From Cinnamomum chago (Eukaryota; Streptophyta; Magnoliopsida; Laurales; Lauraceae), in assembly GCA_038049695.1 (NCBI GenBank), contig CP142453.1:116724001-116788000 (forward strand): a stretch of 64,000 bases of DNA. Direction: 5' to 3'. Numbering within the stretch: the first letter of the stretch is position 1; each line of letters starts with the position of its first letter. This document shows, piece after piece, positions 3,300-37,699 of the stretch. The notes below the pieces were generated by a model. The model was given only the letters and a program-made list of their open reading frames with translations, was not told the DNA's origin and did not search any database. Both the position numbers and the translations under genes were made by a program.

Positions 3300-3660
3300 C
3301 TCGTGAGAGAGCTTGAGACCGTGCTTTTGGCGCCCCATGAAAGAGCTGCTAAGCTGGAGAAAGGCTACCTGTTTGAGAACAGAGCAGGGGTAGGCTAAGC
3401 TTTTTTCGCGACCCGTGAGAGAGCCGCTAAGCTGGAGATAGGCTGCCTGTTGGAGAACAGTGCAGAGGTAGGCCAAGCTTTTTTGGCGACCCGCGAGAGA
3501 GCCGTTAAGCTGGAGATAGGCTGTCTGTTTGATAACAGTGCAGAGGTAGGCCAAGCTTTTTTGGCGACCCGCGAGAGAGCCGCTAAGCTGGAGATAGGCT
3601 GCCTGTTTGAAAACAGTGCAGAGGTAGGTCACGCTTTTTTGGGCGACCCACGAGATGATT
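3300..3660. repeat. 78-bp tandem repeat inside the gag-only element
   Basis: The word GCTAAGCTGGAGA (with minor changes) recurs at 3348, 3426, 3504 and 3582, giving an exact 78-bp period and about 4.5 units. Units share TAGGCTGCCTGTTTGA and a GCAGAGGTAGGCCAAGC block. As 78 is 26 codons, both strands stay open through the array (minus strand 3183-3632, plus strand 3450-3707). I take these open frames as a consequence of the periodicity, not as genes. Confidence 0.9.
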
Positions 3661-4978
3661 CACCTCGCCTAGACCTGTTGATTTCCTCAGCGTTCATATA
3701 TTTTTGAGCTTTTGCCAATAGCTCTGGCATGCTCTTTGGTGGTCGCTTCATTACTAAAAAAAGGAAACTGGATGAACGGAGGCCTCCTAGAAAGGCGGTC
3801 ATGGTGACCTTGTCGTCTGGCTCTTCGACTTGGAGTACCTCCTCGTTAAAACGAGTGAGATAGCTCCTGAGGCTTTCATTCTTATCCTGCTTTATGCTGA
3901 GCAGGTGTGTGGCGGGCTTCTGGTGGCGACGTCCTCCAATGAAATGTGACACGAAGGACTTACTCAATTCTGCAAAGGTGGAAATGGAGGTTGGGGCGAG
4001 ACTGGAGAACCATTGCCTTGCAGAACCCTTCAAGGTGGTTGGAAACGCTCTACACATCATCTCGTCAGGGATGTTGTGTAGTTGCATTAGGGTTTTGTAA
4101 GTTTCCAAGTGATCCAGCGGGTCCTTGGTTCCATGAAAGGTCTCCATGGTCGGCATTTTGAATTTTTTTGGGAGTGGGTAGTTCGCCACGGAGGGCTTGA
4201 ACGGTGTGTCCGTTCGCTGTACCAGGTAGTCTATTGATTCTGGTACCTGTGCCTTCATGGCATTGAAGACATTGTCAATCTGATTTTGTATCTCCTTGAT
4301 CTTCTCGTCCCAATGGTTGGGAGCTTCCCTGGACTGACCTCGGAAATGACTCTCGCCTTCCAGGCTGTAATTCTCACTTCCCTCCTCCTGGAAATCAGGA
4401 TCCTCATCATTGGAAGCAGGGGGAGGAGGTGGAAGTCCACCGCGATTCGACCCTCCTGGGGCTCGACCCGGGGGAGGAGGTACGTCGAGATGAGCGCGAC
4501 CTTCAGGATCGACCAGGAGTCTTCCGTGTGGGATGACAGGCGGAGCTCCAGCAGATGTGCCCTGGGCGTGGGCGCCATGATGACCGGCGCCCAGGGTGCC
4601 ATGAGGATGGGCGCCCAGGGGTATTCCTCGACCCTGGGCGCCCATGGGTTGGGTGCCCAGGTGAGGATGGCGTCGGTTGGCGCCTCGGCCCCGGGCACCG
4701 TGTGGACGGGCGCTCGGGTGAGGTGCCCCTCTGCGTGGAGCAACTGGTTGCTCTGAGCGAGGTACGTCCTGTGGCCCTGCACCTAGTGCTCCTTCCTGCC
4801 CCGCCAGCATGAGCTGCAATATTTGCTGGTTCTGAGTCACCAGCTGCTGCATGGTCTCCAGCATCTGTTGAGGAGAGGGAGCGGGAGCATTCGGTGGAGG
4901 GTTGGTTGGTGGAGGATTACCCTCGCCTTCCCGCGAAGGATTACCATCTTGTTGCCTTGTTGACCTGGTGATCGGCAT
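3629..4978 (-). CDS. gag: Retrotransposon Gag protein
   Basis: 449 residues, uninterrupted, starting about 50 bases inside the 5' LTR. Gag is the structural protein that packages element RNA into cytoplasmic virus-like particles. The N-terminal third is rich in Pro, Gly, Ala, Gln and His with a Gln-rich helical stretch (residues about 38-60). Residues about 283-405 form a Retrotrans_gag domain (PF03732 type), with the typical AFPTTLKGSARQWFSSL block at about 311-327 and SLRSYLTRFNEEV further on. There is no CCHC zinc knuckle; the protein ends in a short basic Ser/Arg/Lys tail. The Gly-Ala-rich region at about 60-170 is encoded by the same GGGCGCC words that fill the non-coding interior. An intact frame fits the element's youth and suggests selection for Gag supplied in trans. 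Confidence 0.9.
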   Translation of the reverse strand: MPITRSTRQQDGNPSREGEGNPPPTNPPPNAPAPSPQQMLETMQQLVTQNQQILQLMLAGQEGALGAGPQDVPRSEQPVAPRRGAPHPSARPHGARGRGANRRHPHLGTQPMGAQGRGIPLGAHPHGTLGAGHHGAHAQGTSAGAPPVIPHGRLLVDPEGRAHLDVPPPPGRAPGGSNRGGLPPPPPASNDEDPDFQEEGSENYSLEGESHFRGQSREAPNHWDEKIKEIQNQIDNVFNAMKAQVPESIDYLVQRTDTPFKPSVANYPLPKKFKMPTMETFHGTKDPLDHLETYKTLMQLHNIPDEMMCRAFPTTLKGSARQWFSSLAPTSISTFAELSKSFVSHFIGGRRHQKPATHLLSIKQDKNESLRSYLTRFNEEVLQVEEPDDKVTMTAFLGGLRSSSFLFLVMKRPPKSMPELLAKAQKYMNAEEINRSRRGESSRGSPKKA

Positions 4979-5012
4979 AGCTTTTGAAAAAAAGGAAAAT
5001 TCTTTTCAGTTC

Positions 5013-5030: not shown

Positions 5031-5578
5031 TGATGATGCCAAAAAGTGGTTTTCGGGCACCACCGGTCAAGTAATAAATAATTAATGAAAAAATTAATGG
5101 AGAGAGAGAGAGAGGAGATTTATAGTGGTTCGGTCGGTGCGACCTACGTCCACTTTAAACTGATGATTTTACTGCTCTGGGGGAGAGGTTACAAAGTAAA
5201 AGATTTACAATGATGATGTGAAGAAATTGGAGGAGGCTCGCTTCTTTGATAGGACTCTCCTTTTATACTCTTCCCCCAACGGGTGGGGAGATTCTCCAGC
5301 GATCTCCAGCGAGGTACGCTACATTCTGGTGGAGTCTTCCGAACCGTCCTCAACAGACGAGCAGGTAAGATTTCTTTCGTAGGACTTGGTGAAGGCCATT
5401 TAAAGGAACGAGGCACTGACTCCGTCATTCGGTGGATCTAGACCCGGCCCTCGAAGGGTGGACATAGACCTGGACCCATCATGGACTTGGGTCAGTCAGA
5501 CCTGACCCGCCATCGTGGACCGAGCCGTTTGGGCTTAGCCCGTCAGCGCAGATTGAGCCATTTGGGCCTGACCCATCA
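5031..5578 (-). repeat. 5' LTR of the gag-only retrotransposon
   Basis: 548 bp with TG...CA ends. On the minus strand it contains TATAAAAGG (plus-strand 5259-5267), a plausible U3 promoter TATA box, and a short GA run near its 3' end. It is followed directly by the primer binding site. Confidence 0.93.
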
Positions 5579-8817: not shown

Positions 8818-9594
8818 TCAATCAAGAGCTTCAAGTTCCTTCCCATGGGGAGATGTGATCCTAAACACATGCTCTTCTCCTGTGCATTGATCTACCCTAA
8901 CAACCCAACGACTCCTCCTTGTCTCACTACAACTAGCCTTACCAGACGCGGGAATCCTCATAACCTGCAGCCCATCCCCAATTGGCAATAGCTCCGTCCT
9001 TGACCCGCTCCAGCACACCCCTTTGTGTAATGCATTGTAGCCCATGATCACGGCCCCCCGGCAATTGGCCCCTGTCTGGGCTGCTCTAAGGACCTCTTCA
9101 TGCCCCACCATGTTACAGTCTATGAGCACAAAATCTGCTCCCAAGTAGTCATTGAGCAAGAGCAATTGAGCATCGCCTATGATGAACTCCACGCAATTAG
9201 CTTCCTTCCCCAGCACTAGTTTCGACGAATGTAGCTCATCTAAACCAGTCAGGATACACACCACTCGGCCTCCTGTCTGCTGTGCAGCAGCAACTAATGC
9301 AAGTGTTGTTGCACCTGCAACACCATCGCATACCTCCACCATTAGTTGCGCACTGCTGCCGGCCGCCAGTGCCGATATGAACTCAGACATGTCGGGCTCC
9401 TTAGCTTTCTTTCCCTGCACCAAAAGCCAAAACAACCCACATTTAGAAATCTAGACAGCTTAGATGGTAGTATCATGTATGTTAATTTATTGATGGTAGT
9501 ATGATGTATGTCAATTTATTGATGGTTTGTTCATGCTTACCATCTTCACAGTTCGAAGAAAGGCTCTGGTGGCATTCTCAGCAGACCAAGCCAT
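8818..9594 (-). CDS. DUF1442 family protein (SAM-methyltransferase-like fold)
   Basis: Two exons: 9594-9541 (18 codons) and 9414-8818, separated by a 126-bp intron with a GTAAGC donor and TGCAG acceptor. The phase is clean and gives 216 residues, the usual size of plant DUF1442 proteins. The protein starts MAWSAENATRAF and continues into GKKAKEPDMSEFISALAAG, both characteristic of the family. A Rossmann-like first strand and glycine loop follow (VEVCDGVAGATTLAL), then GDAQ, DFVLIDCN and an ALHKG segment; it ends near a VFRITSPHG motif. The family resembles SAM-dependent methyltransferases, but no reaction is established and the SAM loop is weak. A start inside exon 2 would lose the conserved N terminus. 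A TATA box and a GA-rich leader lie upstream. Confidence 0.88.
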
Positions 9595-14745: not shown

Positions 14746-14750
14746 AAGGA

Positions 14751-15042
14751 TATAACAAATTTAGAGACTGAAAAGCTGTCAAGTAATGATGGAGACAAAA
14801 TGCAGAAACTGAAAATTTTATTCTCTCTGCAGATAATTGATTGAGAACAACTCTATTAATACTAAAATATCTCCTAAATAATCTCAACAACATCAACGGT
14901 TTCAGAGATTATTCTTGCTAAATAAAAGCAACAAAGTCCTAAATAAAAGGAAGACTGAAAAACAACTTAGACTTATTCAAGAACCCTAATAACTAGGATC
15001 CACTAAAAGCAGTAAGCCAGTAAGTTGCACTAATTTTTGACA
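14751..15042 (-). repeat. 3' LTR of the Copia element
   Basis: 292 bp. It is bordered on the element-internal side by a minus-strand polypurine tract, CTAAGGGGGAAG (15043-15054). Confidence 0.93.
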
Positions 15043-15054
15043 CTTCCCCCTTAG
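15043..15054 (-). other. Polypurine tract of the Copia element
   Basis: CTAAGGGGGAAG on the minus strand, directly before the TGTCA start of the 3' LTR. Confidence 0.8.
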
Positions 15055-15942
15055 TGCAAACTTATAGCTAACAACACCAAGAGCACTTGGAAAAACTTCC
15101 AACTTAGCTTTGGCAAGTGCTTTGGTAAATATATCAACAACTTGATCTTCAATTCGAATTTTCTGCAACTCAATGTCTTCAGTTAACACCTTCTCTCGAA
15201 CAAAATGGTAATGAGTTTCAATGTGTTTTGTGCGTACATGAAACACGGGATTGCCAGCAAGCTTAATAGCACTCTCATTATCACAATAAATGGGAACTGG
15301 AAGGTTGAAAGCAAAAACCAAATCTTGAATGAGTCTCTCAAGCCAAAGACATTCTTGAGTGGCCATGGTAGCTGCCATGTACTCAGCTTCACAACTTGAA
15401 AGAGCAACCGTAGTTTGCTTTTTACTGCACCAGGACCCTACTACTGAACCAGTATTGAAACAATAACCTGTTGTGGATCGCCTATCATTCACATCGCCAG
15501 CCCAATCCGCATCTGCAAAACCACTTAAAGAAAAAGATACATGCTGCTTGTAGAGTAACCCAAAATTTAGAGTACCTTTGACATAGCGAAGGATCCTCTT
15601 GGTTGCAATTAGATGACCCTCACATGGTTTTTCCATAAACTGAGAAACGACTCCAACAGAAAATGCAATGTCAGGTCTTGTGATAGTTAAATAGAATAAA
15701 CTCCCAACAAGCTATCGAAAAAGTGTTGCATTTTTAAGTGGTTTTCCATCATCTTTTGTTAACCTCAGGAAAGGCTCCATAGGAGTGGTCATTGCTTTTG
15801 ACTCCCCCATATGAAAGTGATTCAATAAACTTGCAGCATACCTTTTTTGAGACACAAAATAACCATCTGATTTTTCAACCTTTAGGCCAAGAAAACAACT
15901 AGCTTCACCCAAACTCTTCATTTCGAAACGAATGGACAAGGC
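15055..15942 (-). pseudogene. pol: Copia pol remnant: reverse transcriptase end and RNase H
   Basis: Continues the same frame on the far side of the hAT: MKSLGEASCFLGLKVEKS, then a KRYAASLL block, an in-frame TAG (15712-15714) where LVGSLFYLT is usually preceded by Gln or Arg, and the Copia RNase H with FADADWAGD, SSCEAEYMA and HVRTKHIETHYHF motifs. CAG to TAG is a single C-to-T change. The open frame runs on past LGVVS into the LTR. Confidence 0.9.
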
Positions 15943-15950
15943 TTCTTGAA

Positions 15951-16165
15951 TAGGGATGGCATTTTTAACCCGTCCCGCCCCAACCCGGAGTGCCCGCCCC
16001 GCCCCGCACGGGTTTTCCCCGCCCCGACTCTTAGACGGGGCGGGGACGGGGAAAAAAACTATACCCCGAATCCGGGGCGGGGCGGGGATGGGTATGGTTC
16101 TTGCCCCGCCCGGCCCGCTGCCCCGCCCCGAAATACCGCCCCATGCCCCGCCCCGTAACCCCCCC
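15951..16165. repeat. Left terminal and GC-rich subterminal region of the hAT
   Basis: An 11-bp TIR followed by about 200 bp of C/G-rich words (CCCGCCCCGCCCCG, GGGGCGGGGACGGGG) in both orientations. hAT transposases bind repeated subterminal motifs, so this probably acts as the left end recognition region. Sequence outside this block turns abruptly AT-rich. Confidence 0.85.
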
Positions 16166-19100
16166 CGAAATTAATAATCCTCTAAAATATATATATATTA
16201 GATTTCTTTTATAATAAATAAACATATTTATATGTAAATGTATATATTGATTTTATGTTGTTATTAAGGGTTAAGTAGATTGATTGAAGACTTTTTTGAA
16301 AGTTAAACATGTAATTGAATGAGACATTATAAAAGCATATAATATGATCCCATTCCCTCTAATTCAAATTTAATGAAGTTAAAGTTGTTAAAAAAATCTA
16401 TCTAAGCTTATTTTACTGTAATCATATATAATGTTAAATTGTGACAAGATAAATCATATTAAATAAAACGAATATAAATATATAATAGAATGATGGATCA
16501 TGCTTTAATAGCAAAGTAAATTATAGTTAGTAACTTAATATGATTCTAATCATACTAACAACACTATAAATTATACTAATTTTAATTATATGTAATCAAC
16601 ATCTTTATTAGTAAGTGGAGTTCATTGGTCTTAAAGTGAGGTTTCTGCCAAATCAATGAGATTTAATGATATTGACCATCAACTGTTAATAATTTTGACT
16701 CGACTTGATCCTCGTTAAGATCTTCCAATCTTTTTCTTACCTGTGGTTAGTACTTGGTATGCATATGGTTGGGGCCCACACCATGGAAAGTTGGGTAAGC
16801 TTGTTGACCTGAGGGAAAATTGAAACATATATCATGTAGTCAGTTCAATACCAGAAATGGAGTGAAACCATGTATTGAAGGAGTTCATGATATAAACAAT
16901 CTAACAATGCCCCACACTTATAAAATATTTATGCGGTGAGATCTTTTTATTCTATTTTGAGAAAAACGTCATGGTCCCTAGAAAGACTAATGTTTTGAGA
17001 GGGGCCTGAGTTTCGGGCAAATAAGTCAGCATGGTTGAGTTTTTTTTTTAATATTATTAAAGGCATGGAGATAATATAGATGAATCATTTATGTGGTTTT
17101 TACCATGTAAAATAAATGAATTTACCTTTTTTCTTTGTAGAAAAAAAGTGATAATTTAAAAATAGGGAGATGGAATTGAATGTGTTGAATAGTGCGGAGT
17201 AGCATGTATGCTCGACCTAAAGTTTACTCATTCATTAATTATGATAAAGAAGTCAATTCAAATATTTTTTAAAGCTATAAAGGTTAAATCAACATTTAAT
17301 TAATAGGTCACATTCAAGTTAAATTGCCGAGAGGTCATGGTAAAGTTGGGCCCGGAGGTCATATGTTATAGATTAACTTTAATACAATCCATTGATTAAT
17401 TGGGTTAGAGAAATGTTAGTTCAAACATACGAAAAAAAAAAAAAAAAACTCTAACTTTGAATTACCAAGTGGATTCACTGGTAGCTTAGCGGTGAGGCAC
17501 ATCCCTTCCATAAAAACAGGTAAGGATCAGTTCCTTACTATAGTACTGATGGTGAGGGACTTGATTGAGTGAGTACAAGGCATATGATTATTTATAGTAC
17601 AGGAGGGGGAGTTCGAGTTAGGTTGGTAAGTTAGGTCAAAATTTCTACTACTATCAATTTCTTCTAAAACTTTCTCCAATTAAAGGACTATAGCTAATTT
17701 ACCAACTGCCTCATGACAATGCTCTTATTAATTATCATAAATTAAAAGAGTTTATAAAACTATCTTACTTTTGTTTCATTAGAAGGTAACTTGCACTTGA
17801 GCTAAGCCCAAATTGTTACCGAACCAACTTCAGTTCTAACCCTTCCAATTTCAAACTTTACCTCTAAATTTCAAATTTCTTTAATCCTATATTTTTTTAA
17901 TTGTTAAATCATTTAAGGGTGATTGTAGTCATCTTTTATTTTTAAATATTATTAACATAATTGCCTCATTTAATTTATAATCTCGTTGATCAAAATATAC
18001 CTATAAGAGAGATTCTTCTTTATCGATAAGAGAGAATGTCATGTCATGTCCATTTCGCTCAACAATTTAAAATCATGATAATATACTCTCTACATTCCTT
18101 CACCCAAAATAATCACACTTTATATTTTATTTTTACTCAATTTGTAAATGGGGCTTTTCTTTAGGCTTATACTTAATAAATCTCATTATGTCACTCCAAT
18201 TAAAATTACTTGATATGTAGTTAAAATTTATATTAATTTCTTACTTCTCATAAACTTTTATATTTTTTTATTACCTTTTATTTTTTAACGTTTAAACATT
18301 GACACCGATAAAATTTAAATAATGTTTAATTCATAAAACTAATTACATCTTTAAGGTTTTGACCTTAATCAAGGCTACTATGACAAATGTCCATGCTTTA
18401 AGCACGGGTGGTCAAGCTAGTTATTAATTATTATACATTATAGGGTTAGGATTCGATTTTGAATTTGAAGTCTGATTTCGCAATTGATTGAGAAATTGGA
18501 GCTCAATTGAGATTGCAATTGCGAAATTGAAACTCCAATTTTGATTTCAATTTTGATTAGAGATAAATTTTAAATTTGCTTGAAATCTACGTTGAGAGTC
18601 CACTTTTGTCAACCTTCTTTAGGAGAATTTCAAATTTAAATATATTTTATAGTACAAGCACGTTTCTCTTTTTTCTTTGCCTTTTTTTTTTCCTATTGAA
18701 AAGTAGAAAAACTTGCACATGATTTCTCTATGTCAAAGCCTTTTAGAGGATCCGGATTTATCAATGTGTATAAATCTAACAGCAGAGCCTATATCTTAAA
18801 TCGTTCACATCACTAGCTAAACCTATATTAGATTTATTTTAAATTCTACTCTAATAGAACTTATCTCATCAGCAAACTTGAAAGAACCTCCTAAATCCTA
18901 ATGGGCCCATTTGGATCATAATCTGGGCATATATAATATCTGGGCCAGGCATGGATGAATGACAGAAAGCCCAAGCCCTGGCCTAGGCGAGCCCAAATAA
19001 AGAGTGTAATTTAGTGATTATTTGTCCAAACAATAAAGCATTTTGCTTAGCCTGGCCCAATTGGTATTGGACCCAGACATGACCCAAAAAAAGGCTCGTT

Positions 19101-19380
19101 TGCAACTCTTTTGCCGTATGGAATTTGAAGTTCATATATAAATTCATTTTTTCTACTCTAATAATGATTTAATATTCATATGACAATACTTGAAGTTCAT
19201 ATATAAATTCTTTTTTTTTAAATTACTAGTATATGTTTTTAGAATTTTTTCTACATTTTAAGAATTTTATATACTTAACTAGTTAATTGTATGTAAAATA
19301 CTTAACTGAACCGTTAAAAAAAAAAAGAAAAAACAAAGGGGCTCAATGAAATATTAACACCTTAAAGCAAACCAAAGGTC
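16166..19380. other. AT-rich 5' filler inside the hAT
   Basis: About 3.2 kb of AT-rich sequence between the left subterminal repeats and the transposase leader. No coding domain was recognised on either strand. It may contain unrecognised older insertions. Confidence 0.45.
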
Positions 19381-19390
19381 CAAAAGACCA

Positions 19391-20749
19391 AAACCCTAGC
19401 CGTCTCTCAAGCCTCAACTCATCTTCTCTCCAGTCTCCAGACTCCGGCACCAGCAGCCGCCCATCTCCATCTCCATCTACATCTCCCATCCTCCATCGCG
19501 CAACGACGACGCTCTTCATCGACATCTTGCCTCTCCCTGCAAGGCTGCAACCCATCTCACGCACTGGTGCACTACCGTCTTCATCTTCCTCCGCCGGACG
19601 CACGCACGCAGCACTCCCCGAACACCGCAGCGCCTTCACCTTCCTCCTCCGCCTCACGCGACGCCTCCCCTACAGCAGGTACACTCCCTTGTCTTTTTTT
19701 CATCTTGGCCCCCCTGCAGTGTGTAGTGTTGTCTGTATGATTGTTTTTTTCTTCATGCTGTGGGGGTGAGAGAATCAAATGTAATGCCATGAATCTACCC
19801 CAAGCCGCCACCCTTTTTTTTTTTTTGTTCTCTTGTTCTTTTCATTTGAATGGATGTTCTGTTTTTTCTTCTTTTTTGCAATCTTCTCTGACCTACTAAA
19901 TGAGTTGGATAAACAGCAATTAGGAAAACTCCTTAAATTGTTACCCAGACTAAAATCACATGGGTGTGAGATTAACAGTTTGTAGGTTATAGAATTCAAT
20001 AAAGAAGATATCGCATGTTATGTTTGAGGTCCTAATCCTTTGTGTGCTGCTGGAAAGTCATTGTACAAGTCATTTTTTTTATTCCTCGCATTCAATAATT
20101 GTCATCTCCAATAACCTTTGCGGTCCAATTGATGGTTCATAGACCAAGCAATCCTTAGTTGATAGATTTCAAAACCATCCAAAGTGGCGCTCTTAGTTTT
20201 GGCAATGACCCATCACTTGGTCAATGAATGTGAATTTTCTGAATACACAGATAATTTATACACACTAACCTTTCTAAATTGCTACTGAAGCTCAAAGAGT
20301 TGGTGGATGTGTACACTCTAAGAAAGGTGCTTTGATACATTAATGGACCACATGGCTATGTAGACAGTAAAATCCATTTAGTTCAGATAATAGGAGCCTA
20401 ATTAGTTTCATATAGTTCTACTGGAAGTGTTAATGGAATTTGAAGAGATACTAATGCTCCAATAAATGACTAAGAGAAAATTACGGCAGGGCACAAAGTA
20501 CAAAGATATCACAATCCTATCTCCATTCTGTCAAGTTTCCTATAATGACTGTCAAAACATATGCAATACTATCCATTGATCTTGGTGGGGTCTTGGGGAG
20601 TGATTTGGTTTCCCTAACATCTGCAATTAAATGTTGGTCCTTTTTTTTCTCTTCTTGAAAAATTCAAAGACCTAATAGAAGTTAAAAAGTACAGTGGTTG
20701 TTCATCTTGGTGTTTTTATTGCTAGTTGTATATCTAATTTAATTTACAG
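19391..20749 (+). promoter_or_regulatory. Leader exon and 5' UTR intron of the hAT transposase
   Basis: A C-rich, CpG-containing leader begins around an AAACCCTAGC telo-box-like motif (19391-19400) and ends at CAG|GTACAC (donor GT 19679-19680). The acceptor ATTTACAG ends at 20749, giving a 1,071-bp intron. From 20750 the first ATG is the transposase start at 20810. The transcription start itself is not determined. Confidence 0.5.
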
Positions 20750-20809
20750 GATTTTCTAGTTGACACGTTGAAAGCAAATACTAAAAGAATTATTGCAGAT
20801 TTTGTTCAA

Positions 20810-22904
20810 ATGTCTTCATCATCTTCACCTGGAAATGATGATATGGTTACTGGATCTCAAACTTCTTCACCAATTTCCGAAAGTCCGCAATCACCTATGA
20901 TCCCTTCTGAAGAGAATCAATCCAATGCTTCTTCAAGTCCTATCCATTCTGAACAAGTTGAAGCTAATGATGGTGGAAAGTCAAAATTGAAGTCGGCTAT
21001 GTGGAATCATTATGATAGAATAATAGTTGATGGGGTTTATAGGACAGTGTGCAATTATTGTTCAAAATCCCTTGGTGGAGAAACTAAAAATGGGACCAAA
21101 CATCTACATGACCATTTTAGGAGATGTCCAAAGAGAAAGTATAAAGATATTGTGGATATGAGACAACAAGTTTTGGTGAATCAACAAAATAAAGTTGATG
21201 AAAGAATGAGTTTGACTGCCCATCACTTTGATCAAGAAGTATCAAAGAGGGAACTCGCAAATATGATTATTTTGCATGAGTATCCTCTTTCTATAGTGGA
21301 GAATTTTGGGTTTAGAAGATTTGTAGTTTCATTGCAACCTTTGTTTAAAATGGTTTGCAGAAATACAATAAAGAGCGAAATCTTCAAAATCTACAATTGT
21401 GAGAAAGAGAATGTGATGAAAAAGTTAGATAAGAATCGAGGCAGAGTTGCCATTACAACTGATATGTGGACATCAAGTAACAGAAAGAGGGGGTTTATGG
21501 TTGTAACGGCACACTTTATCGATGACTCGTGGAATTTACATAGTCGAATTATGAGGTATATACTTCTTTTTTTTTATACTATTTTAGATTGTTTGAACTT
21601 AATTATTGAACAAGTAGATTTCTTAACTAATCAAACTCAATAATTAATTATATTTCAGGTTTATTTATGTGCCTTCTCCACATACAAAGGAGGTTCTTGC
21701 GGATTCACTTTTGGAATGCTTATTGGAATGGAATATTGACCGGAAGTTGTCTACAATGACCGTGGATAATTGTAGTACAAATGATGCCATGGTTAAAATT
21801 CTTTCAGAGAGGCTTCAAAAAAGTTCACTTATGTTGCACGGGTCCTTGTTGCATATGCACTGCGCCGCGCATATTCTTAATCTGATTGTTCAAGATGGGT
21901 TGGGTGTAATTAAGGTAGCAGTTGAAAAAATTCGGGATAGCGTGGTATTTTGGACAGCATCAACAAAGAGAAGACAAAAATTTGGAGAGACAACGCAACA
22001 GTTGCATATGGAAAGAGCTAAAGAATTGGTTCTAGACTGTAAGACTCGTTGGAACTCTACATATCTTATGTTGTCTAGTGCCTTGATGTACAAGGATGTT
22101 TTCTTTCGCTTAAACCAACATGACTCATCCTATGATTGCATGCCAAGTGATGAAGAATGGGAGGTTGCAAAAAATATTTGCAAGAAACTAGAGTTATTCT
22201 TCAATGTGACTAAGTTGTTCTCAGGTACCACATATCCTACTGCTAATAATTATTTTCCAAAAGTTTGTGAAATTAAAATATCATTGGCGGAGTGGTGTTT
22301 GGATTCTAATGTTGTGATTAAGAATATGGCATTTCATATGTTTGAGAAATTTAATAGTTATTGGAATGTCATTAGTGGTATCATGGGTGTAGCAACTGTC
22401 CTAGATCCAAGGTATAAGATGATGTTGTTGGAGTTCTACTTTTCTACAATTTATGGTGACGACACAAATGATGAGATTAGGAAGATAAAGGGAATTTGTG
22501 AGGATTTGATGCATGAATATAGTTCCCAAAATATGGACACAAATAGCCATGACTCCTTTACATCAAATCCAAATGTGGTAAATAAAGACAGTCTTGCTAG
22601 TTTTGATCAGTTTGTTAGTAGTAGAAAGAAGGGTTCAATTGGAAATATAAAGTTAGAGTTGGACCACTATCTTGAGGATGATGTATTGCCTCGGTCTCCT
22701 GATTTTGACATCCTTGCTTGGTGGAAAACTAATGGACCCAAGTATCCCAATTTGCAACGTATGGCAAGAGATATTCTAGCCATTCCAGTGTCAACGGTTG
22801 CTTCAGAGTCGGCTTTTAGTACCAGTGGTCGATTGTTGAGTCCCCATCGTAGTAAACTCCATTCAAATACGGTTGAGGCGTTGATGTGTGCTCAGAATTG
22901 GTGA
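20810..22904 (+). CDS. hAT transposase
   Basis: Two coding exons, 20810-21555 and 21659-22904, joined by a 103-bp GT-AG intron that falls within an Arg codon (…HSRIM-R-FIYVP…), giving 663 residues. A Ser-rich N terminus (1-50) is followed by a BED-type zinc finger at about 60-106 (C81, C84, H102, C106). The RNase H-like core carries Asp218 (ITTDMW) and Asp285 (TVDNC). A DUF4413-like region lies at about 440-540. The C-terminal hAT dimerisation region (about 580-663) contains Glu632 (ASESAFSTSGR). The DDE triad is thus intact. The frame stops directly after MCAQNW, where a further exon appears to have followed. I chose the ATG at 20810 because the upstream frame to the splice site has no ATG. 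Confidence 0.93.
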
Positions 22905-23121
22905 AACAATGAAATTTCACCTAGAGATGGAGGTATTATAAATTAATATTTAAATTAATTACATGTTATTTAATTGAATTTCTCTTATTTTTAATATGTT
23001 TTTGGTGTTATTAGGTCATTCATTGAAAATAAGTTCAAAGGATTCCATCACGCTTCAAAACATTCTCGATGACATTGATGATGGTGAAGGAGAAGAAATT
23101 GATCAAATTGTGCTTGGATGA
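22905..23121 (+). pseudogene. Probable lost C-terminal tail of the hAT transposase
   Basis: After the TGA at 22902-22904 the same frame stays open to an exon end GATGGAG|GTATTA. An 82-bp intron (22933-23014, acceptor TTATTAG) leads in the correct phase to a further open exon (23015-23121) ending in an acidic run (DDIDDGEGEE) and a TGA. This would be 44 codons beyond the stop. The matching phase argues that TGA is a secondary change, for example from CGA. Confidence 0.55.
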
Positions 23122-24447
23122 TACCTTCTAAAGTAATTTTTTTTTTCACTTTCACTTTTGTAACTACTTGGGAGTTTATATGTTAATTATTGGATTCATT
23201 AGATTTTCATTTTACATGCAGTGAGGCTGACAGAGGACAACTAGTTGGTGCATTTGGCGTTGCAGGGTTCTTTTTTCTTTTTTATTCCTATCTTGCTGGT
23301 GCAACTTGAACTCTATTTGTGGTTGAACTTTGTTTGTGGCATTGCGGGGTTCTGTTATTTGAACAATCATGTACTCTATTTGAACTATGTTTGTGGTTGC
23401 TTAAAAATTCTCCAAACTTGATGATGTGATTGTACTCTATTTGAACTTTGTTTGTGGTTGACTAAAAATTCTCCAAGCTTGATGATGACCTTGGAAATCA
23501 GAAAACTTATGTTACAAGGTGGCTTTTCCTCTTCTTCTTCTTCACTTTTCTTTTTTATGAAGAACTTTGACAGGTCCAATGGCTAGTGTAGACTGTGAAT
23601 CATTGAAGTGTGCAGCCGTGCAGGTGAATGCTATACAGGTCCAGGACTGATGCAACCCATTTTTTTTGAGCTTTTGCTATAGAAGTATATACATGTTTCC
23701 TTTTTCGTTCTTAATAATGCTCCATAACAATGCTGGTGGTGGTGATGACGCATTGATCTGAGGTGGAATCTTTGAAGCACTATTGCATTGCACCTAATGT
23801 AATCTTAAAATCTCTTAATATCTGAACTTCCATGCAATATGCATTTAATCTTTTCTCTCACAATGTGCCAGTTCTCTCTAATGGGTATAATGGAGAGGAA
23901 ATGAAATTAGTGAAATCAACGCGAAAAAGATAGGTAATCCGTTTTTTTTTTTAATTGGTAGTTTGGTACAAGCCCTCTGTGTGTGTGTGTATTTAACTTG
24001 TTTCTAAACTTTGTTCCAGAACGACATGAACATCAAGGTGACTGCCACTTGTATATATATGAGTTCCTGTGATGTGTGCACATGCTAAGAGTGAAAATCT
24101 TCAATTTGGGAAGCCAATTGATGAGGTAATGTTGTAATGTGGTTTATAGTGTGACTCTTTAGGTCAGATTTTGAGTTAGAATTTGATGATGCTGATTTCT
24201 ATTGCCAGCACTATGCTTGATGTTATTGCTTTTTGAACTTACATGATATAGTCTTGAAACTTTTGCCTTGACTTTAGGGCCCCATTGGCCAGATTGCACC
24301 ATCCTCGTGAGGATAGTTGTCACCTGAATAAAGCTCATATTAAAAAAAAAAATCTATGTATGACCAGAGCCCAGCGGGCCTGTCCTAAGTCCAGCCCAAT
24401 AAGGGATCCATACCCTAAATCTGGGTTTGATACCTGGCATATTGGGC
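23122..24447. other. 3' region of the hAT transposase gene, no further gene recognised
   Basis: AT-rich. Contains loosely repeated TTTGAACTTTGTTTGTGG words at 23320-23460 and a short TG run near 23980. I recognise no coding domain here. The part next to the BUD31 exon may be captured intron. Confidence 0.4.
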
Positions 24448-24605
24448 CCATTGGATAGCCTGAATCCTCAGTTACTGGACTCGGGCTCAGTTGGTTGGGC
24501 TGGACCTGGGTCTATTTACATACACCCCATTGGATAGCCCGAATCCTCAATTACTGGATTCGGGCTCGGTTGGTTGGGCCAGACCTGGGTCTATATACAT
24601 ACACC
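24448..24605. repeat. Tandem duplication, period 79 bp
   Basis: CCATTGGATAGCC starts at 24448 and again at 24527. Both units run through a TTGGTTGGGC block and a TACATACACC end with about seven differences. Non-coding, inside the hAT upstream of the BUD31 fragment. Confidence 0.9.
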
Positions 24606-24981
24606 CCTGCTTGACTGAAAACAAAATCTTCTCTTACTAATTTTCTGTTATGTTCCCTTGGATGACTTTGGTTACTTCACCTAATGACTGTTGAATTAGG
24701 TCCATAAGGGGCTAATGAGGCCAAGAAGATAGCATTTTTTAAATGCATGGTTAAGTGGAAATAACAATAACAATACAAGATTTTGTTCAAATCTAAGATG
24801 GCTATTTCAATGTGTAGTTTAGTCTTAGTTTTGGCATCAACATCTAATACAGTGGGACCCATCTGGTAGACTGCTCAGATCGTGCACACGTACTAAATTG
24901 GCATGTGACTGTTTTTGTATGTTGTTGGACAACTTACTGATTCAAATCTCATTCTTAATCTTGTGTCTGATTGATTTGCAG

Positions 24982-25137
24982 CCTGGTTATGAAAGACTCT
25001 ACTGCCTAAGGTGCATGCAGCCCCGGGATCACAACTTTGCCACTACCTGCGTCTGCAGAGTCCCCAAACACCTGAGAGAAGAGAAGGTTATAGAGTGTGT
25101 TCATTGTGGCTGCAGGGGTTGTGCTAGTGGAGATTGA
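24982..25137 (+). pseudogene. BUD31: Captured last exon of BUD31/G10 splicing factor
   Basis: A single exon behind a clean acceptor (GATTTGCAG) encodes 51 residues to a TGA. These include [26 protein letters not shown] and the C-terminal [10 protein letters not shown], which is the conserved C terminus of plant BUD31/G10. BUD31 is a small nuclear zinc-binding protein of the spliceosome of about 145 residues. Nothing upstream encodes its first two thirds, so this is a fragment starting at the intron after a ...WKK segment. It remains open, but one Cys of the conserved LCCLRC motif is Tyr here. The exon and probably neighbouring intron and 3' UTR travel inside the hAT, on the same strand as the transposase. 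Whether it is transcribed, or spliced to the transposase transcript, is unknown. Confidence 0.88.
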
Positions 25138-25307
25138 AGCTGATCTGATCGTCGTGTTACTTGTCTCTTCTATCCATGTAAAACAACTATTCTGGATTAA
25201 GATACTTAACAGAAGTTATGGTCCAATGTCCATAACTCAGAAGGGTTCATTTTTCTGTTGGAAACTTGTCTAATATAATCTAGATTTTCGTGTGGAAAAG
25301 TAGCCTA

Positions 25308-25499
25308 CTGTAAGGTCCTTTCATCAGTCACAACAACAATCTCCTGTTTAGTTTTTGTAAGAGCTTCCTTCACTGAAAAAAGTTCATCTCACAGTACTAT
25401 TTAACTCGACTTTACCTCATCCAAATTTTGATTCAACGATGCCAGTGCTTCTGAGAATTCAGTTTGAATTCTTGAAACCTCTGATGTTAGTTCTTCAAC
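25308..25499 (-). pseudogene. Captured coding fragment of a coiled-coil protein
   Basis: On the minus strand one frame reads VEELTSEVSRIQTEFSEA, continues through SLNQNLDEV and, after two stops 12 bases apart, DELFSVKEALTKTKQEI and VVVTDERTLQ. The heptad-like spacing of Leu/Val/Ile with Glu/Lys is typical of a long coiled coil. It lies between the BUD31 fragment and the right subterminal repeats, opposite in strand to both. The parent gene is not identified; filament-like plant coiled-coil proteins are candidates. The TAA and TGA, plus loss of both ends, mark it as a dead fragment. Confidence 0.6.
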
Positions 25500-25726
25500 G
25501 GGGCGGGGCGGGGACGGGGCAACCCAATTCCGTCCCCGCCCCGCCCCGTTGATGTGGTTGCACCACATCGGGGCGGGGCCCCAGGGCATGTCGGGGCGGG
25601 GACGGGCCGGGTATTTAAGATACCCCGAAGTGCAGGGCGGGGCGGGGACGGGGCGTACCCCATGAGGTGCTGGGCGGGGACGGGGCAACCCAATTCCGTC
25701 CCCACCCCGCCCCGTTGCCATCCCTA
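25498..25726. repeat. Right GC-rich subterminal region and TIR of the hAT
   Basis: A hairpin-forming unit built from GGGGCGGGGACGG, CAACCCAATT and CCGTCCCCGCCCCG occurs at 25498-25547 and again at 25671-25718, with further GGGGCGGGG words between. The region ends in the 11-bp TIR. Confidence 0.88.
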
Positions 25727-25734
25727 TTCTTGAA

Positions 25735-27284
25735 GACGAGTGATTTCAGCACTGTCGTCTCCCGTAATGATCATATCGTCCACATAAAGGAGGAGTATTA
25801 TGCACATGTGTCTTCTTAATAAACAAGCTTGGATATGCACTTGCAGACGTAAAACCACAAAAATCAAGATATTGAGTGATCTTACCATACCAAGCATGTG
25901 GAGCTTGCTTGAGACCATATATAGCGTTCTTAAGTCGGCACACACGATCAAGGAATTCCTTAGAAATAAATCCATGTGGCTGTTCCATAAAGATATCACG
26001 ATCTAGCTCTCCATAAAGGAATGCATTCTTCACGTCTAATTGCCACAATTTCCAGCATTTGTAAGCAACCAATGAAATAATTGTTCGAATCGTCACCATT
26101 TTAACAATAGGACTGAAAGTCTTCTCGTAATCTACTCCATATTACTGAGAAAATCCACAAGCAACAAGACGAGCTTTATGCCTATCGATGGTGCCATCAG
26201 CCCTTTTCTTCAACTTGTAAACACACTTACAAGTAATTAAACGCCTTGCCTTTGGGTCAAGTTTAGTCTGATTACCTTTCAATACATGGACATAACAAAT
26301 GGAACCAAAAACTCGAAAATAACTCACATTGGGTTTGCAGTGGTATAGTAGTTCAAATGGAGATGATTCTGTCCCTGGCCATGGAGGTAAGCAATTGATG
26401 ACATGAGCATCGGATTCAATAGCTGCTGCCCATAGCTCCCTCGGAAGATTCTTTGCATGCAACCATGATAAGCACATGGCTGTTAGATGTGCCAACTTGT
26501 GCTCAGAAACTCCATTTTGTTGCGGAGTTTACGGACAAGTCATTTGATGCAAAATCCCATGCTCCCTGCAATATTCGAAGAATTGATCAGACATGTATTC
26601 CCCCCCATTATCGGTGCATAGACACTTTATAGGCAGCCCAAATTCTTGCTCCACCTGCTCCTTGAATTGAACAAATTTGGATAGAGCTTCACTTTTGTGT
26701 TTCAAGAAATACACCCAAGTGGACCGAGAAAAATCGTCCATCACATAATGAAGACCAGTGTAGCTAGGTGTTGTTGTTGGCCCCATAAGATCTGAATGGA
26801 CAAGCTGTAGAGCGAAAGAAGATCTATTTTTTTTAATTCGGGAAAGAAAGACGATGAGATTTTCCATATTGACAACCTGGACAAACCACATTGTGGTGAA
26901 TTTCCATAAAGAGAGGAACTCCATCAAGAAGTTTCTTTGTGGAGATTTTCTGTAGCAACTGATAGCCAACATGACCTAACCAAGCATGCCAAAGTGTCGC
27001 ACTTGCATTCTGACCTGTCTTTTCAACATATGCATCACTTGCAGACAATACATATAATGATTCTTTCCTTTTTCCAGCAAATAAGACATCAACCTCAATG
27101 TGCTTTAAATTTGAGAAACTGAAGCTAGATTCTTCTTTAGGCCTAGAACATGATAAACATATTTGAGAGAAATGCCTCCATCATTTGAATTGCTCTCCTT
27201 GATTTTGAAATACCCTTCTTTCACTACATAATGTAATGAATTATCATCTGTCACAATGGCCTTTTCCCACAATGTGGATGAACA
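25735..27284 (-). pseudogene. pol: Copia pol remnant: protease end, integrase, reverse transcriptase N-terminal half
   Basis: In element order: a GAG-pre-integrase zinc region (LWHAWLGHVGYQ, then CPGCQYGKSHR) near 26833-27048; an integrase core with HSDLMGP and TDNGGEY catalytic segments (26529-26800); the end of the integrase core (26142-26495); and reverse transcriptase from about 26230 to the hAT junction, including LDVKNAFLYGELD and YVDDMIITGDD. Damage: a frameshift near 26830-26970; an in-frame stop just before TPQQNG (26529-26531); a deletion joining an integrase DPKARR segment to reverse-transcriptase CKCVYKLKKRADGT; a stop after GFSQ (26142-26144); and a frameshift near 25800 just before YVDD. 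It ends at the hAT insertion. Non-functional. Confidence 0.9.
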
Positions 27285-28337
27285 TCAGAGCAAAGAAGCA
27301 TTTCTTGTCGCATGATGGGAGTAACCAGAATCAACGATCCATTCTTTATTATAGTCTATGAGAACAACAATATTTGTTGGTGCATTTGTCTGATCCACAT
27401 TTGCAGCTTGATCAATAGTTTCAATGGCTAAGCACTGCTCCCACTTTGGTTGTTCAATCTCACTGCTTTCATGAGCTGCATTTGCATCTTCTTCACTAAG
27501 ATTCACCCGACAATTAGATTGAATGTGACCAGGTTTCCCACAGCGATTGCAAATTACCTTCACTCGGCAATCACGCTTAAAATGTCCATGCTTTCCACAC
27601 CTGAAGCATGTTCTTGAAGTTCCCTTAGATTGACCTTCATCATTTGAAAGCACACTACCATCTACAATTTGCTTTTCATAATAGTTTCTTTTACTTTGAT
27701 CCTTGGAGTAAAGTACTTCCTCCACTTGCACAGAAGGCTTGTTATTGGTCATCTGATTCACCAAGGCTTCCTGATTTGAGAGCAAGTTCTCCAATTCAAT
27801 GATAGAGGGTTGTTTTGACCACCCTTGTATAGAGGAGATGAACGGCATGAATTCCTTCCGTAGTCCTCGAATGATATAACGACGTAACCGTGCCTCACTC
27901 ACAGGTTCAGTAGGATCCAGCTCTGAAATTTCAGCACACAAAGTTTTAACTTTCAGGAAATATTCTAGAATTGCAAGGTTACCTTGGATGATCCCGGCAA
28001 GATCATTTTTTAAGAACTGTAGCCGCATCGTGTTCTTTTGAGCAAACAATCTTTCGAGTGTCTCCCACACTTTCTTTGGTGATTGCTCATCACGAACATG
28101 CTCTATATACTCCTTACTAATAGAGGTTCGTAGAGCAAATAAAGCCTTGCCACACTTCACCTTCCACTTCCGACGTGACTCGACATTTTGTGGCGTGTCC
28201 TCTGAAATTATAGCTTCATCACCAGAGACGACATCCCACAAGTCTTGTCCTTGTAAGAAAGCTTCCATACAAAGCTTCCAATAGTTGTAGTTGTTACCAA
28301 CTAGCTTTTCTACAGCAACAGAATTTGCACCATTCAT
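27285..28337 (-). CDS. gag: Copia Gag with protease start
   Basis: Open from the ATG at 28337 (MNGANSVAVEKLVGNNYN), 350 residues. A UBN2-type Copia gag domain covers about residues 1-200 (NYNYWKLCMEAFL, then a KKVWETLERLFAQKN-like block). Two CCHC knuckles follow at about 245-285 (CFRCGKHGHFKRDC and CNRCGKPGHIQSNC), then the aspartic protease entry WIVDSGYSHHAT at about 333-344, where the usual Cys of DSGCSHH is Tyr. The frame stops soon after in the protease, so the polyprotein is broken there. I chose the internal ATG because the open frame upstream runs into the LTR. Confidence 0.88.
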   Translation of the reverse strand: MNGANSVAVEKLVGNNYNYWKLCMEAFLQGQDLWDVVSGDEAIISEDTPQNVESRRKWKVKCGKALFALRTSISKEYIEHVRDEQSPKKVWETLERLFAQKNTMRLQFLKNDLAGIIQGNLAILEYFLKVKTLCAEISELDPTEPVSEARLRRYIIRGLRKEFMPFISSIQGWSKQPSIIELENLLSNQEALVNQMTNNKPSVQVEEVLYSKDQSKRNYYEKQIVDGSVLSNDEGQSKGTSRTCFRCGKHGHFKRDCRVKVICNRCGKPGHIQSNCRVNLSEEDANAAHESSEIEQPKWEQCLAIETIDQAANVDQTNAPTNIVVLIDYNKEWIVDSGYSHHATRNASLL

Positions 28338-28371
28338 CTTCACGAGTACACGAATCAGCCCTTGGAACCGG

Positions 28372-28383
28372 GCTTTGATACCA
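28372..28383 (-). other. Primer binding site of the Copia element
   Basis: The minus strand reads TGGTATCAAAGC directly after the 5' LTR, one base from the TGGTATCAGAGC site complementary to initiator tRNA-Met that is standard in plant Copia elements. Confidence 0.85.
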
Positions 28384-28675
28384 TATAACAAATTTAGAGA
28401 CTGAAAAGCTGTCAAGTAATGATAGAGATGAAATGCAGAAACTAAAAATTTTATTTTCTCTGTAGATAACTGATTGAGAACAACTCTATTAATACTAAAA
28501 TATCTCCTAAATAATCTCAACAACATCAACGGCTTCAGAGATTATTCTTGCTATATAAAAGCAACGAAGTCCTAAATAAAAGGAAGACTGAAAAACAACT
28601 TAGACTTATTCAACAACCCTAATAACTAGGATCCACTAAAAGCAGTAAGCCAGTAAGTTGCACTAATTTTTTACA
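28384..28675 (-). repeat. 5' LTR of the Copia element
   Basis: 292 bp, matching 14751-15042 end to end with 12 substitutions and no indels that I could see. Adjacent to the primer binding site. Confidence 0.93.
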
Positions 28676-33986: not shown

Positions 33987-35523
33987 TCATAATAAAATAA
34001 ATAAACTAAAATAAAAAAGATAGCAGGTAGATGTTGGAGGAAAAAAAAAAAAGTAGGGCCATGTAGATGAGTTGATAAACAATTATGAGACCAAATCAAG
34101 ATAGGTGGGCATTTTAAATTAATAGAGAGGCCTCTCTCAACTGGGCTCTGTAGGCTACGTAACCAAAAGTCTATGGGGAATCGAGCGAGGAATTTTTTTT
34201 TTCTTAGGTGTACGTGTATTTATTATGAGAACATCAAGTGAAAAGAGAATGATATAAGAGAGTTAGTGCCTTTGTTTCAAAGCAAGATTAGTGTCCTTGA
34301 AATGCATCCCCATGCAGAATACTGGAAAATCTATGGTCAAAACCTATGGAAAGTAAAAAAGCACACCATATTATGGGAGGCCCACATCGTGGGCGGGACT
34401 CATTAACATGATCCATTGATGATTGACCACCATTTTATTTAAAGGGTTCTTCAACCACAATGTCACCCACAATCTGAACCGTCTGATTGAGTGATGGAGA
34501 ATTGGAGATACAGATCGATCAGAAATGGGACAGAGTGGGCTTACAATCAAAATCGCAATGATGGATTCCTTAATGGCATACATCTTCACCCGTCGTTCAG
34601 CTGGATAAGAAACATGTGATGTGGTGTGCATGGATTGAAGAGTTCAGATCACTTAAACAGCAAGCGAAAAAAAAAATCCCAAAGGCAGGCATACATCTTA
34701 AATAAAAGCAGGTCGCAAGCCCCACCAGAAACATTGTACGATTTTTTAGACGTGGCCTGAAAATGAAAACCGGGTTGGCGATCTTTTTGGTGGGGGATTA
34801 TTAAAGTCAAAACCTGCTAAATTTCTTGGCCTCTGGCATTTTACTTTTAAACTAAGGTGGAGGGAAGTGAAATAAAAAATAGAAAATAAAATATAAGTGA
34901 GTTTTGATGATATTTTATTTTTAGTTGTTAGGGATGAAATATTATTGACTTTTTGTATGTAAAAATATGGTTTTTTTTTATCTTTTAGTAAACAAAAATA
35001 ATTGTTTTTTAACATTTTTTTTAAGAAAATGAAAGGAGTTTTGAAGTAAAGTACTTTTGATTTGATATTTAATTTTACTTGGCTTAACTTTACTTGACAA
35101 ATAAAATTATCAAATAGGGCCCCGCACAGTGATTCTATTGAAACATGGAATAGGATGACCAAACAGAAACCCTGTTTAGACCAACGAGGGGTGCCACATG
35201 CGAATAAAAAAAAAATTTATATAGAGGAGATGAGATGTCTTTGATATGACATATCTCCCATACGTGGCACCTGAGTGGTCCAAACAGGGGATCCGTCTGC
35301 CCTGTGCCCAGCAGTTTCGAACCCCAACAATCTCAACTCATGCAAAGAGAGTTCTCCTTATAACCAAGCCCATCTTTGTTTTGTTCTCACACGGGAATCC
35401 CGTAGGCTGAAAAATTGAAAGGCTTCACGGAATCACGAAATCCTCGCAGCTACAAAAAACACGAAACGGACCTGCACAGCTAAAAACACTTCTCCATTTC
35501 AGTTCGATTGAGAGCTAGAGAAG
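33987..35523. other. Intergenic and upstream region of the reductase gene
   Basis: AT-rich, no coding domain. CCTTATAACC at about 35357-35366 is a weak TATA candidate for the gene starting at 35524. Confidence 0.4.
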
Positions 35524-37699
35524 ATGGGGATTGAGAAAGGAAAGGTATGTGTGACTGGTGGTGCCGGCTACTTTGCTTCATGGCTCATCAAGAGGCTTCT
35601 TCAAGATGGCTATTCGGTCTCCACCACCGTTCGATCAGACCCAAGTACCCACCCACCCACCCTCTTCTCTAATCTCATTCCATTGAATTATATATACATC
35701 TTTGATGCAATCCAATCATCTTTTCTTTTCCTCATTTTTTCTCCTCTGTTTGTACTTGCAGCATTCAAGGAAGACACCACCCACCTCAAGGCCCTTCCAG
35801 GCGCATCCAAGAGGCTCGAAATCTTCGATGCGGATCTTCGCAAACCCCACAGCTTCAACGCTGCCATCCATGGATGCGTTGGGGTCTTCCACACAGCTCA
35901 CGCCATCGTCTTCGACGCCCAAGATTCAGAGAACATGGTGATCAAGCCTGCCTTGGAAGGAACGGTCGGGATTCTTCAGGCATGCCTCAATTCGAAGACC
36001 GTGAAGCGAGTCGTCTACACGTCTTCGGCTAGTGCGGTTGCTTTCCATGGAAAGAAGGATCTGAAGGAGATGGACGAGATCGTTTGGACGGACGTGGAAT
36101 TCTGCCGAGAGCAAGACATCCCCATCTCTTCCTACTTCATTTCAAAGACTCTCACCGAGAGAGCGGTTCTTGAGTTTGCAGAAGAATATGGGATGGATGT
36201 TGTTACTGTGTTGCCTTCTTCTGTGGTTGGGCCTTTCCTTGTGCCTCATCTCCCTTCCTCTTTCTCCACCAGCATGGCTTTGATCCTCGGTACGTACCAT
36301 GACTTGGGTCGGTTCGCACCCCAACCTACTTGACCGGACTCGACTAAAGTGAAATTTTGGGTTGGGCATGTTTGAGGTTGGGTCTGAATTGAACCTGAAT
36401 TTTGAAACCCACATAAAATTCAAATCAGATAACTCAAACTCAAATTTAGCAAAGTATATCAATTTTGGGTATGTGTTCTGATATAAAGCGCATTCACCTC
36501 TTCAATAGACTCGGTCTGATCCAAAGTTATTGAGTCAATCCCTCCAGTTATAGTTTGATTATATTTCAATGACTCCAAAGTATTTGGAGTGGGCTTTTGG
36601 TTCAGTTCCGATTTAAATTGACCGTTTTCTCCAAAATTTGTTTAATCTGTCTATTCGAAACTTCTGCTCGGCCATTGGTCTATGGGTGGTAGGGCGCAAC
36701 AACCTTATGAGTAACAAAGTACTTTCTCATCAAATGGTCAAATGTGCTATTATAGAAATGGGTTGTGTGACCGCTTTCTATAGAAAATGTGTGGAAATCT
36801 GGACTTCTTTTTTTTTCGCACTAAAAGCCTCCTGCATCTTGTGGGAAAAACTTTAAAAAAATGTGTATAATTTTCAAAGATTCCACAAAAAAGTCTTTTG
36901 GGTTTTTTAGAAGGAAAAAAAGGTTTGCAAAACCCATTTCACTTGGATATATATACACAAACGCACATGTTTGTACTAATATAAAATATTATTTGAGATT
37001 TGTACATTTTATACCTTTTAAAAACCAAATCAAACCTAAAAATTTAGGTTACCCGATACGGAATATACAATATCAAATAATATTTGGGTATCATTTGGGT
37101 TGGGTTGACCCACATGCAATTTAGGTCGAGCTTGGGTACCCGTCCCAACTTAACCAAGTTGCACGAATGGTACCGAGTGCTCCTCTTCCCTTGTGATTTA
37201 ACCACCTGCTGACTAGTGGTCTTGAAGGGACGGTTGAGATGAAAATTAGAATATGTGACAGGGGATCGCGAGCATTGCAAGGTGTTGAGGCAGATGCAGT
37301 TTGTGCACATTGATGACTTGGCTTCTGCGCACATATTCTTGATGGAGTGCCCACAAGCCACTGGAAGATACATTTGTTCTTCAGATGATACTACCATTCA
37401 TACCTTCTCTAAGTTCCTCAGCAACAGATTTCCAGAATTCCCAATACCAACAGAGTAAGTTTGCCAAAACTGCCTTATATTTTTATCCATTTTTGTATTG
37501 TATTGCTTAATTGGAAGTGGGTGATTATGATGGTTTGGTCTTTTGTTTTGATAGTATATTGGATGAGATGGAAGAAGAAGAAGAACCCCTTCACTTGTCT
37601 TCCCAGAAGCTCCTGAATCTGGGTTTCAAGTTCGAATTCGGCCTCGAGGAGATGTTCGATGATGCCATTAAGTGTTGCAAGCAAAAGGGTTTCCTCTAG
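35524..37699 (+). CDS. NADPH-dependent reductase, vestitone reductase/DFR-like (extended SDR)
   Basis: Four exons, 35524-35644, 35762-36289, 37262-37454 and 37555-37699, all with GT-AG introns and matching phases (987 nt, 328 residues, full length for the family). The N-terminal Rossmann motif is VTGGAGYFASWLI (residues about 10-22). The SDR triad is visible as Ser128/Ser129 (YTSSAS), Tyr165 and Lys169 (YFISK). HIDDLASAHIFLME is the usual segment after the substrate loop, and the protein ends DDAIKCCKQKGFL, typical of vestitone reductase and related phenylpropanoid enzymes. Such cytosolic enzymes reduce flavonoid, isoflavonoid or cinnamoyl-type carbonyls; the exact substrate is not predictable. 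Intron 2 is long (972 bp). A Glu run (EMEEEEE) lies at the start of exon 4. Cinnamoyl-CoA reductase-like or anthocyanidin reductase-like activity is an alternative. Confidence 0.93.

Follow-up and report, generated by a model that had tools for sequence, protein, structure and literature searches.

The BUD31 exon and the element that carries it

The window, the whole 64-kb stretch analysed here, belongs to contig C3 of a 1.06-Gb genome on 14 contigs, that of a plant to judge by its transposons and protein relatives (loci elsewhere are given as contig and Mb position). At 24982-25137 (+) it holds exon 3, the last exon, of BUD31, stop codon included, preceded by a CAG splice acceptor (24979-24981) identical to that before exon 3 in both native BUD31 genes. 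The frame 24829-25137 (+) matches the Pfam BUD31 family (PF01125; E 4.6e-18; profile positions 95-146 of 146) and, over residues 94-145, shares 96% identity with a plant BUD31 query (E 5.5e-31); the identification of this exon and its acceptor in the original prediction is therefore sound. A Tyr replaces Cys at 25001. Exon 3 is the sole one of the gene's three exons present, as a protein search of the 64-kb window recovered neither exon 1 nor exon 2 (second-best match E 0.55).

The exon is part of a hAT transposon (Table 1) that is flanked by an 8-bp target site duplication (TSD), bears short terminal inverted repeats (TIRs) and encodes a transposase with BED, RNase-H-like and hAT dimerisation domains, each a hallmark of the hAT superfamily. 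Its ends are exact, as had been predicted, but fall outside the interval 23122-25310 that had been marked out for comparison; the transposase tail reading extends to position 23121, and 25303 is the right edge of the captured piece. The element entered a Copia-type retrotransposon whose LTRs form a direct repeat of 293 bp (95.9% alike) and whose minus-strand coding sequence comprises RVT_2 at 25746-26141, gag/zinc knuckles at 27285-28541 and, left of the hAT, a part at 14986-15942 recognised by eye.

Table 1. Features of the hAT element and its insertion site, in window positions
Feature	Position	Strand	Remarks
Copia-type LTR retrotransposon	14750..28675	-	LTRs 14750-15042 and 28383-28675; received the hAT insertion
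TSD TTCTTGAA, left copy	15943..15950	.	from sequence and script
hAT transposon, 9,776 bp	15951..25726	+	ends from TSD and from where identity to other copies stops
TIR pair TAGGGATGGCA / TGCCATCCCTA	ends of 15951..25726	+	short terminal inverted repeats
5' segment, possible further captured piece	17139..19123	+	95-96% to C12:1.44 Mb
Transposase exon A, BED zinc finger	20810..21555	+	PF02892 E 3.7e-4, 20.9 bits, cut-off 20.6
Transposase exon B, RNase-H-like and dimerisation	21659..22904	+	PF14372 E 2.8e-30; PF05699 E 1.3e-33
Aspartate-semialdehyde dehydrogenase fragment, intron and exon	23684..24775	+	96.8% to C5:87.387 Mb
Filler between dehydrogenase and BUD31 pieces	24776..24798	+	common to neither donor in the alignments
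Captured BUD31 piece, 505 bp	24799..25303	+	aligned to both native genes and other hAT copies
Coiled-coil gene fragment	25304..25497	-	antisense; named by eye
GC-rich subterminal region and 3' TIR	25499..25726	+	
TSD TTCTTGAA, right copy	25727..25734	.	from sequence and script

The two transposase exons, joined by eye, give a reading of 663 residues; two Erythranthe proteins, the top entries among 120 listed of 1,855 matches, share 62-64% identity with it. In the window copy this reading is closed by a stop codon where each of the six other copies compared has a sense codon; the stop costs a short tail, whereas copies with the sense codon can continue into a short tail exon. Among the five other full-length readings, that of C6:6.2 is free of internal stops over 664 codons, those of C2:65.4 and C2:73.5 have one internal stop each, and those of C2:8.9 and C4:26.9 are frame-shifted. 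Changes relative to the majority codons, summed over six copies, amount to 17 silent, 49 missense and 5 nonsense, and the transposase copies show no visible coding constraint. The element had been called autonomous-looking; given the stop in the window and the C6:6.2 reading, this description appears to suit the family better than the window copy.

The 5' segment at 17139-19123 corresponds to C12:1443538-1445779, where it is interrupted by ~250 bp, and transfer could have run in either direction. Many short relatives genome-wide match the element's 5' terminal 0.7 kb (16180-16893) at 95-96% identity, which suggests a large non-autonomous family with ends in common with this hAT. Searches with the hAT ends scored the best 40 of 607 and the best 40 of 1,903 candidates, the latter for 16180-16893, so that counts of relatives are lower bounds, to be read as "at least".

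Native BUD31 genes and the direction of transfer

A whole-genome protein search in which every first-look candidate was scored (19/19) returned 15 BUD31 matches, two each for exons 1 and 2 and 11 for exon 3, the last group consisting of two native genes and nine hAT copies on six contigs. Both native genes, whose exons were placed by protein similarity alone, possess all three exons in order and lie on C12, at 22.27 Mb and 6.56 Mb. The window piece differs from the former at 4 of 498 ungapped sites and from the latter, its paralogue, at 44 of 496; judged by sequence, the gene at C12:22.27 Mb is the donor.

Alignment to the native loci defines the borders of the capture, which takes in 183 bp of intron 2 with its acceptor, exon 3 and 166 bp of 3'UTR, and which sits downstream of the transposase in the same orientation. 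The intron 2 sequence indicates that genomic DNA was copied, not mRNA, and excludes a retro-captured transcript. Outside the borders the donor continues to align with its paralogue and has no match to the hAT, so that the direction of transfer was from gene to hAT; for the same reason, the hAT was ruled out as the source of the native exon. The capture by a transposase-bearing hAT that had been predicted is thus borne out, with the native genes on C12 and not at this site. The capture of BUD31 exon 3 is real and unusually well resolved.

Two positions bear on the history of the piece. Position 25114 is G (Gly) in the donor and in the C12:8.34 copy and A (Arg) in the other eight copies and the paralogue, a pattern that requires a parallel change or, in the hAT lineage, a reversal at a CpG; at 24967 none of the nine hAT copies agrees with the donor, not even C12:8.34. 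The donor Gly falls in CGCRGC, where the BUD31 query, like the paralogue, shows Arg.

Copies of the element with and without the exon

The piece is no chance resemblance, since eight further hAT copies carry it: C7:46.27, C6:6.2, C6:79.3, C4:26.9, C3:9.2, C2:73.5, C2:65.4 and C12:8.34. Over ~500 bp, seven of these are 98.4-99.6% identical to the window piece and C12:8.34 is 97.8% identical. A DNA query (12/12 candidates scored) gave 12 matches, namely the nine exon-bearing copies, the two genes and C2:8.9, a copy that has lost the exon and retains just the 3'UTR tail. The exon is likewise gone from C4:71.7, where 36 bp of the BUD31 piece remain; coordinates give the same 36-bp spacing at C4:42.49, C3:126.1 and C3:105.6, and the stretch read of the C10:11.08 copy contains no BUD31 exon. 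The C7:46.27 copy is missing 20442-23139, and with it all of the transposase coding sequence, yet still has the exon, between the two halves of an exact TSD.

Exact TSDs, all different, flank four of the six copies with comparable flanks: the window copy, C6:6.2 (GTAATGGT), C7:46.27 (GTCTGAAC) and C2:8.9 (TCATAGTA). The other two have imperfect duplications, with seven of eight bases agreeing at C4:26.9 and five of eight at C2:65.4; C2:73.5, which is flanked by a CCCT repeat, stands outside this comparison. The five full-length copies, including that in the window, differ by 0.99-1.33% in their 10 pairwise comparisons, a divergence that points to a recent spread. At C6:6.2 the 5' TIR, ~76 bp of the element and the preceding target sequence are doubled, 89 bp apart.

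Across the nine copies the exon has acquired two silent, five missense and one nonsense change, along with a frameshifting 2-bp deletion. The silent share (2/8) compares with 27% expected without selection when transitions are weighted fourfold, and coding constraint is not apparent from this pattern. The exon seems to be a passenger, for which a protein function is unsupported, and a useful truncated peptide, one of the consequences first envisaged, is unlikely given these mutations. A 7-bp insertion at 25221-25227 is present in eight of the nine exon-bearing copies and absent from C12:8.34; it resembles the excision footprint of another hAT that may once have resided in the captured 3'UTR.

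An exon-free sister and the joints of the capture

A further relative at C1:14.74 Mb is 97.6% identical to the window element over 1,844 bp of the transposase stretch, although it lacks 244 bp of the transposase (window 22451-22694). It has no BUD31 piece and instead has 111 bp between the two joints. It shares an FKBP-like piece with C12:8.34 (96.7% over 430 bp). Its coiled-coil piece, stop-free in C1 across the shared stretch, is the one that stands after BUD31 in each of the nine copies with the exon. Compared with the window, the coiled-coil piece is 90% identical and the 3' end ~77% identical; a sequence at C4:26.38 Mb resembles the window's coiled-coil piece more closely (96%). The C1:14.74 copy is accordingly a sister and not a direct ancestor. 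An NBS-LRR-like frame, named by eye, is found ~1.3 kb beyond this copy, at C1:14.748 Mb.

The presence of an exon-bearing element, an exon-free relative and a donor less than 1% from the window piece in one genome makes the joints of the capture readable. Element and donor agree in 11 of 12 bases at the left joint (GTGCCTTATTAA and GTGCCTTTTTAA, respectively), and at the right joint there is a gapped patch of 10-11 bp (GGAAAGGTTAG in the element, GGAAAAGTAG in the donor). Matches as good arose in 1 of 200,000 random breakpoint pairs for the left joint and in 19 of 50,000 for the right, in a control that used one stretch per partner and patches picked after the alignment was seen. Such short donor-like patches at both joints point to template switching in DNA repair. 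An extra 15-18 bp of donor homology in C12:8.34 was considered as a longer capture and rejected, as C1 reveals it to be the element's own near-match.

Host pieces and their proposed order

BUD31 is not the only host gene represented in this zone. The dehydrogenase piece of the window copy, for which all 26 first-look candidates were scored, has its closest counterpart at C5:87.387 Mb, where the exons upstream match TIGR01296 (E 4.6e-33) and NF011456 (E 2.5e-35) with scores under the full-protein cut-offs because part of the protein was given; a paralogue at C9:67.4 Mb is 83% identical. In C3:9.2, a stretch of 1.85 kb whose exons read as reticulon (PF02453; E 1.3e-15) replaces part of the dehydrogenase piece, within which it lies. 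The last 1.4 kb of this reticulon piece occurs in C6:79.3, and the piece is present in C4:71.7 and C10:11.08 as well. In C12:8.34, the FKBP-like piece stands where the dehydrogenase piece is in the window copy. The names of this piece, with an exon of 16-18 residues, and of the coiled-coil piece are putative and come from reading the sequence, not from a family match.

The C12:8.34 copy is taken as the oldest exon-bearing form because it lacks the 7-bp insertion and has the donor base at 25114. The few copies available suggest an order that would begin with a C1-type element, followed by the gain of BUD31, the substitution of the dehydrogenase for the FKBP-like piece, the substitution of reticulon for part of the dehydrogenase piece, and finally exon loss from some copies.

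Origin of the captured piece

The element is very probably a transduplicating hAT that copied 505 bp of genomic BUD31 into the stretch separating its transposase from its 3' end and went on to multiply by transposition. The basis for this reading is the donor, the borders, the exon-free sister, the homology at the joints and the new sites with their own TSDs. A break or gap in an element under repair would have been the occasion of the copying: the repair strand may have jumped to the BUD31 gene at the 12-bp near-match, copied it and returned to the element at the second near-match, with 111 bp being replaced. The zone would later have been rewritten, the dehydrogenase piece taking the place of the FKBP-like piece and the reticulon piece that of part of the dehydrogenase. 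A broader proposal, offered tentatively, is that the region between transposase and 3' end is an exchange site in which host pieces are overwritten through homology-guided template switching during repair, with FKBP-like and coiled-coil pieces, BUD31, dehydrogenase and reticulon forming the series.

It is very improbable that the piece has been recruited, be it as a splice acceptor or poly(A) site for transposase transcripts or as a source of small RNAs that damp the host BUD31 genes. Its place downstream of the transposase in the same orientation, with acceptor and 3'UTR kept, would allow the former, and nine copies near the donor sequence would fit small-RNA targeting; however, the exon substitutions look unconstrained, and the exon is absent from C2:8.9, C4:71.7, the three further copies with the 36-bp spacing and the stretch read of C10:11.08. 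The exon-less C2:8.9 copy even has its own exact 8-bp TSD, the loss having come either before or after insertion.

Also very improbable is the neighbouring-insertion model proposed for Pack-CACTA, by which two hAT insertions flanking the end of BUD31 would have been mobilised together as a hybrid. This is a published model for Pack-TYPE elements (PMC8903248; PMC13317346, both in excerpt), but in the C1 copy the FKBP-like and coiled-coil flanks keep their order and are separated by 111 bp. That order indicates that BUD31 replaced an internal stretch, and a hybrid of two insertions would not restore it, so that the C1 arrangement largely refutes the model. Finally, that transposons interrupted a host BUD31 gene in place, as an exon with its acceptor flanked by transposon parts might suggest, has next to no probability, since the window holds no other BUD31 exon, both complete genes sit on C12 and nine hAT copies carry the piece.

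Relation to known elements

How cut-and-paste transposons acquire host genes is still debated. The neighbouring-insertion model has been described for Pack-CACTA, and according to the excerpted text of a 2026 review an undiscovered capture mechanism may exist beside it (PMC13317346). For this transposase-bearing plant hAT, the sequence of the joints favours repair with template switching over neighbouring insertion. In animal Pack-TIRs, among them Pack-hAT-N8_XT, a captured piece was multiplied with distinct TSDs, as in the present element, and microhomology at the joints led to a proposal of template switching; the excerpted account gives one captured piece per case and describes no replacement series (PMC8277862). 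A literature search found no report of template-switching or microhomology-based transduplication by plant hATs, nor, judged by titles and abstract openings, any of a transposon-captured BUD31.

The original prediction took gene capture to be less well known for autonomous-looking hATs than for Pack-MULEs and Helitrons, a view that stands corrected in so far as both Pack-hATs and transposase-bearing hATs with host-gene pieces have been published. The closest known system is Hatvine-6 of grapevine, in which, in the text excerpted, transposase and TIRs are common to the copies and the remainder is variable and often matches host introns and exons (PMC2528002). The element described here is similarly a transposase-bearing hAT with host intron and exon pieces in a variable region and several copies, and both are unusually long; the likeness is one of behaviour and does not imply membership of the same family, and the excerpt on Hatvine-6 describes no exon-free sister with a capture site, no homology at the joints and no replacement order (PMC2528002). 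Pack-hATs are known in maize and rice, and the window copy shares with Pack-TYPE elements, as excerpted, the hAT TIRs, the 8-bp TSD, captured host coding fragments between the TIRs and multiple copies, but it encodes a transposase, whereas Pack-TYPE elements are defined as non-autonomous (PMC8903248). It is the C7:46.27 copy, with the exon and without the transposase region, that fits the excerpted description of a Pack-hAT (PMC8903248). A fungal hAT with histone H3 is alike in its length of ~9.5 kb, transposase domain, 8-bp TSD and multiplication of a housekeeping gene, although in the excerpted account an intronless transcript or retrocopy was captured there, in contrast to the genomic DNA with intron found here (PMC6710886). 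The kind of element is therefore already known; the novelty lies in the present case and in a series that can be read. As far as BUD31 is concerned the find is ordinary, with no sign that the exon is used.

Other features of the window

An Rfam scan of the 64-kb window at the gathering threshold and a tRNA scan of the same stretch gave no hits, and the open reading frame at 58180-60492 (-), of 770 residues, had no Pfam match at E 0.001. A direct repeat at 1079-1626 and 5031-5578 is 98.4% identical; the gag-like reading, made by eye, at 3629-5005 (-) between its two parts suggests that this is probably a second LTR element, and the same interval holds a tandem array at 3325-3655 with a 78-bp unit in 4.2 copies. 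The window also contains two probable host sequences: a DUF1442 reading at 8818-9450 (-) that is probably a gene exon (PF07279; E 2.3e-25), and an NAD-dependent epimerase/dehydratase-like reading at 35512-36333 (+) that is probably a host gene (PF01370; E 2.6e-19).
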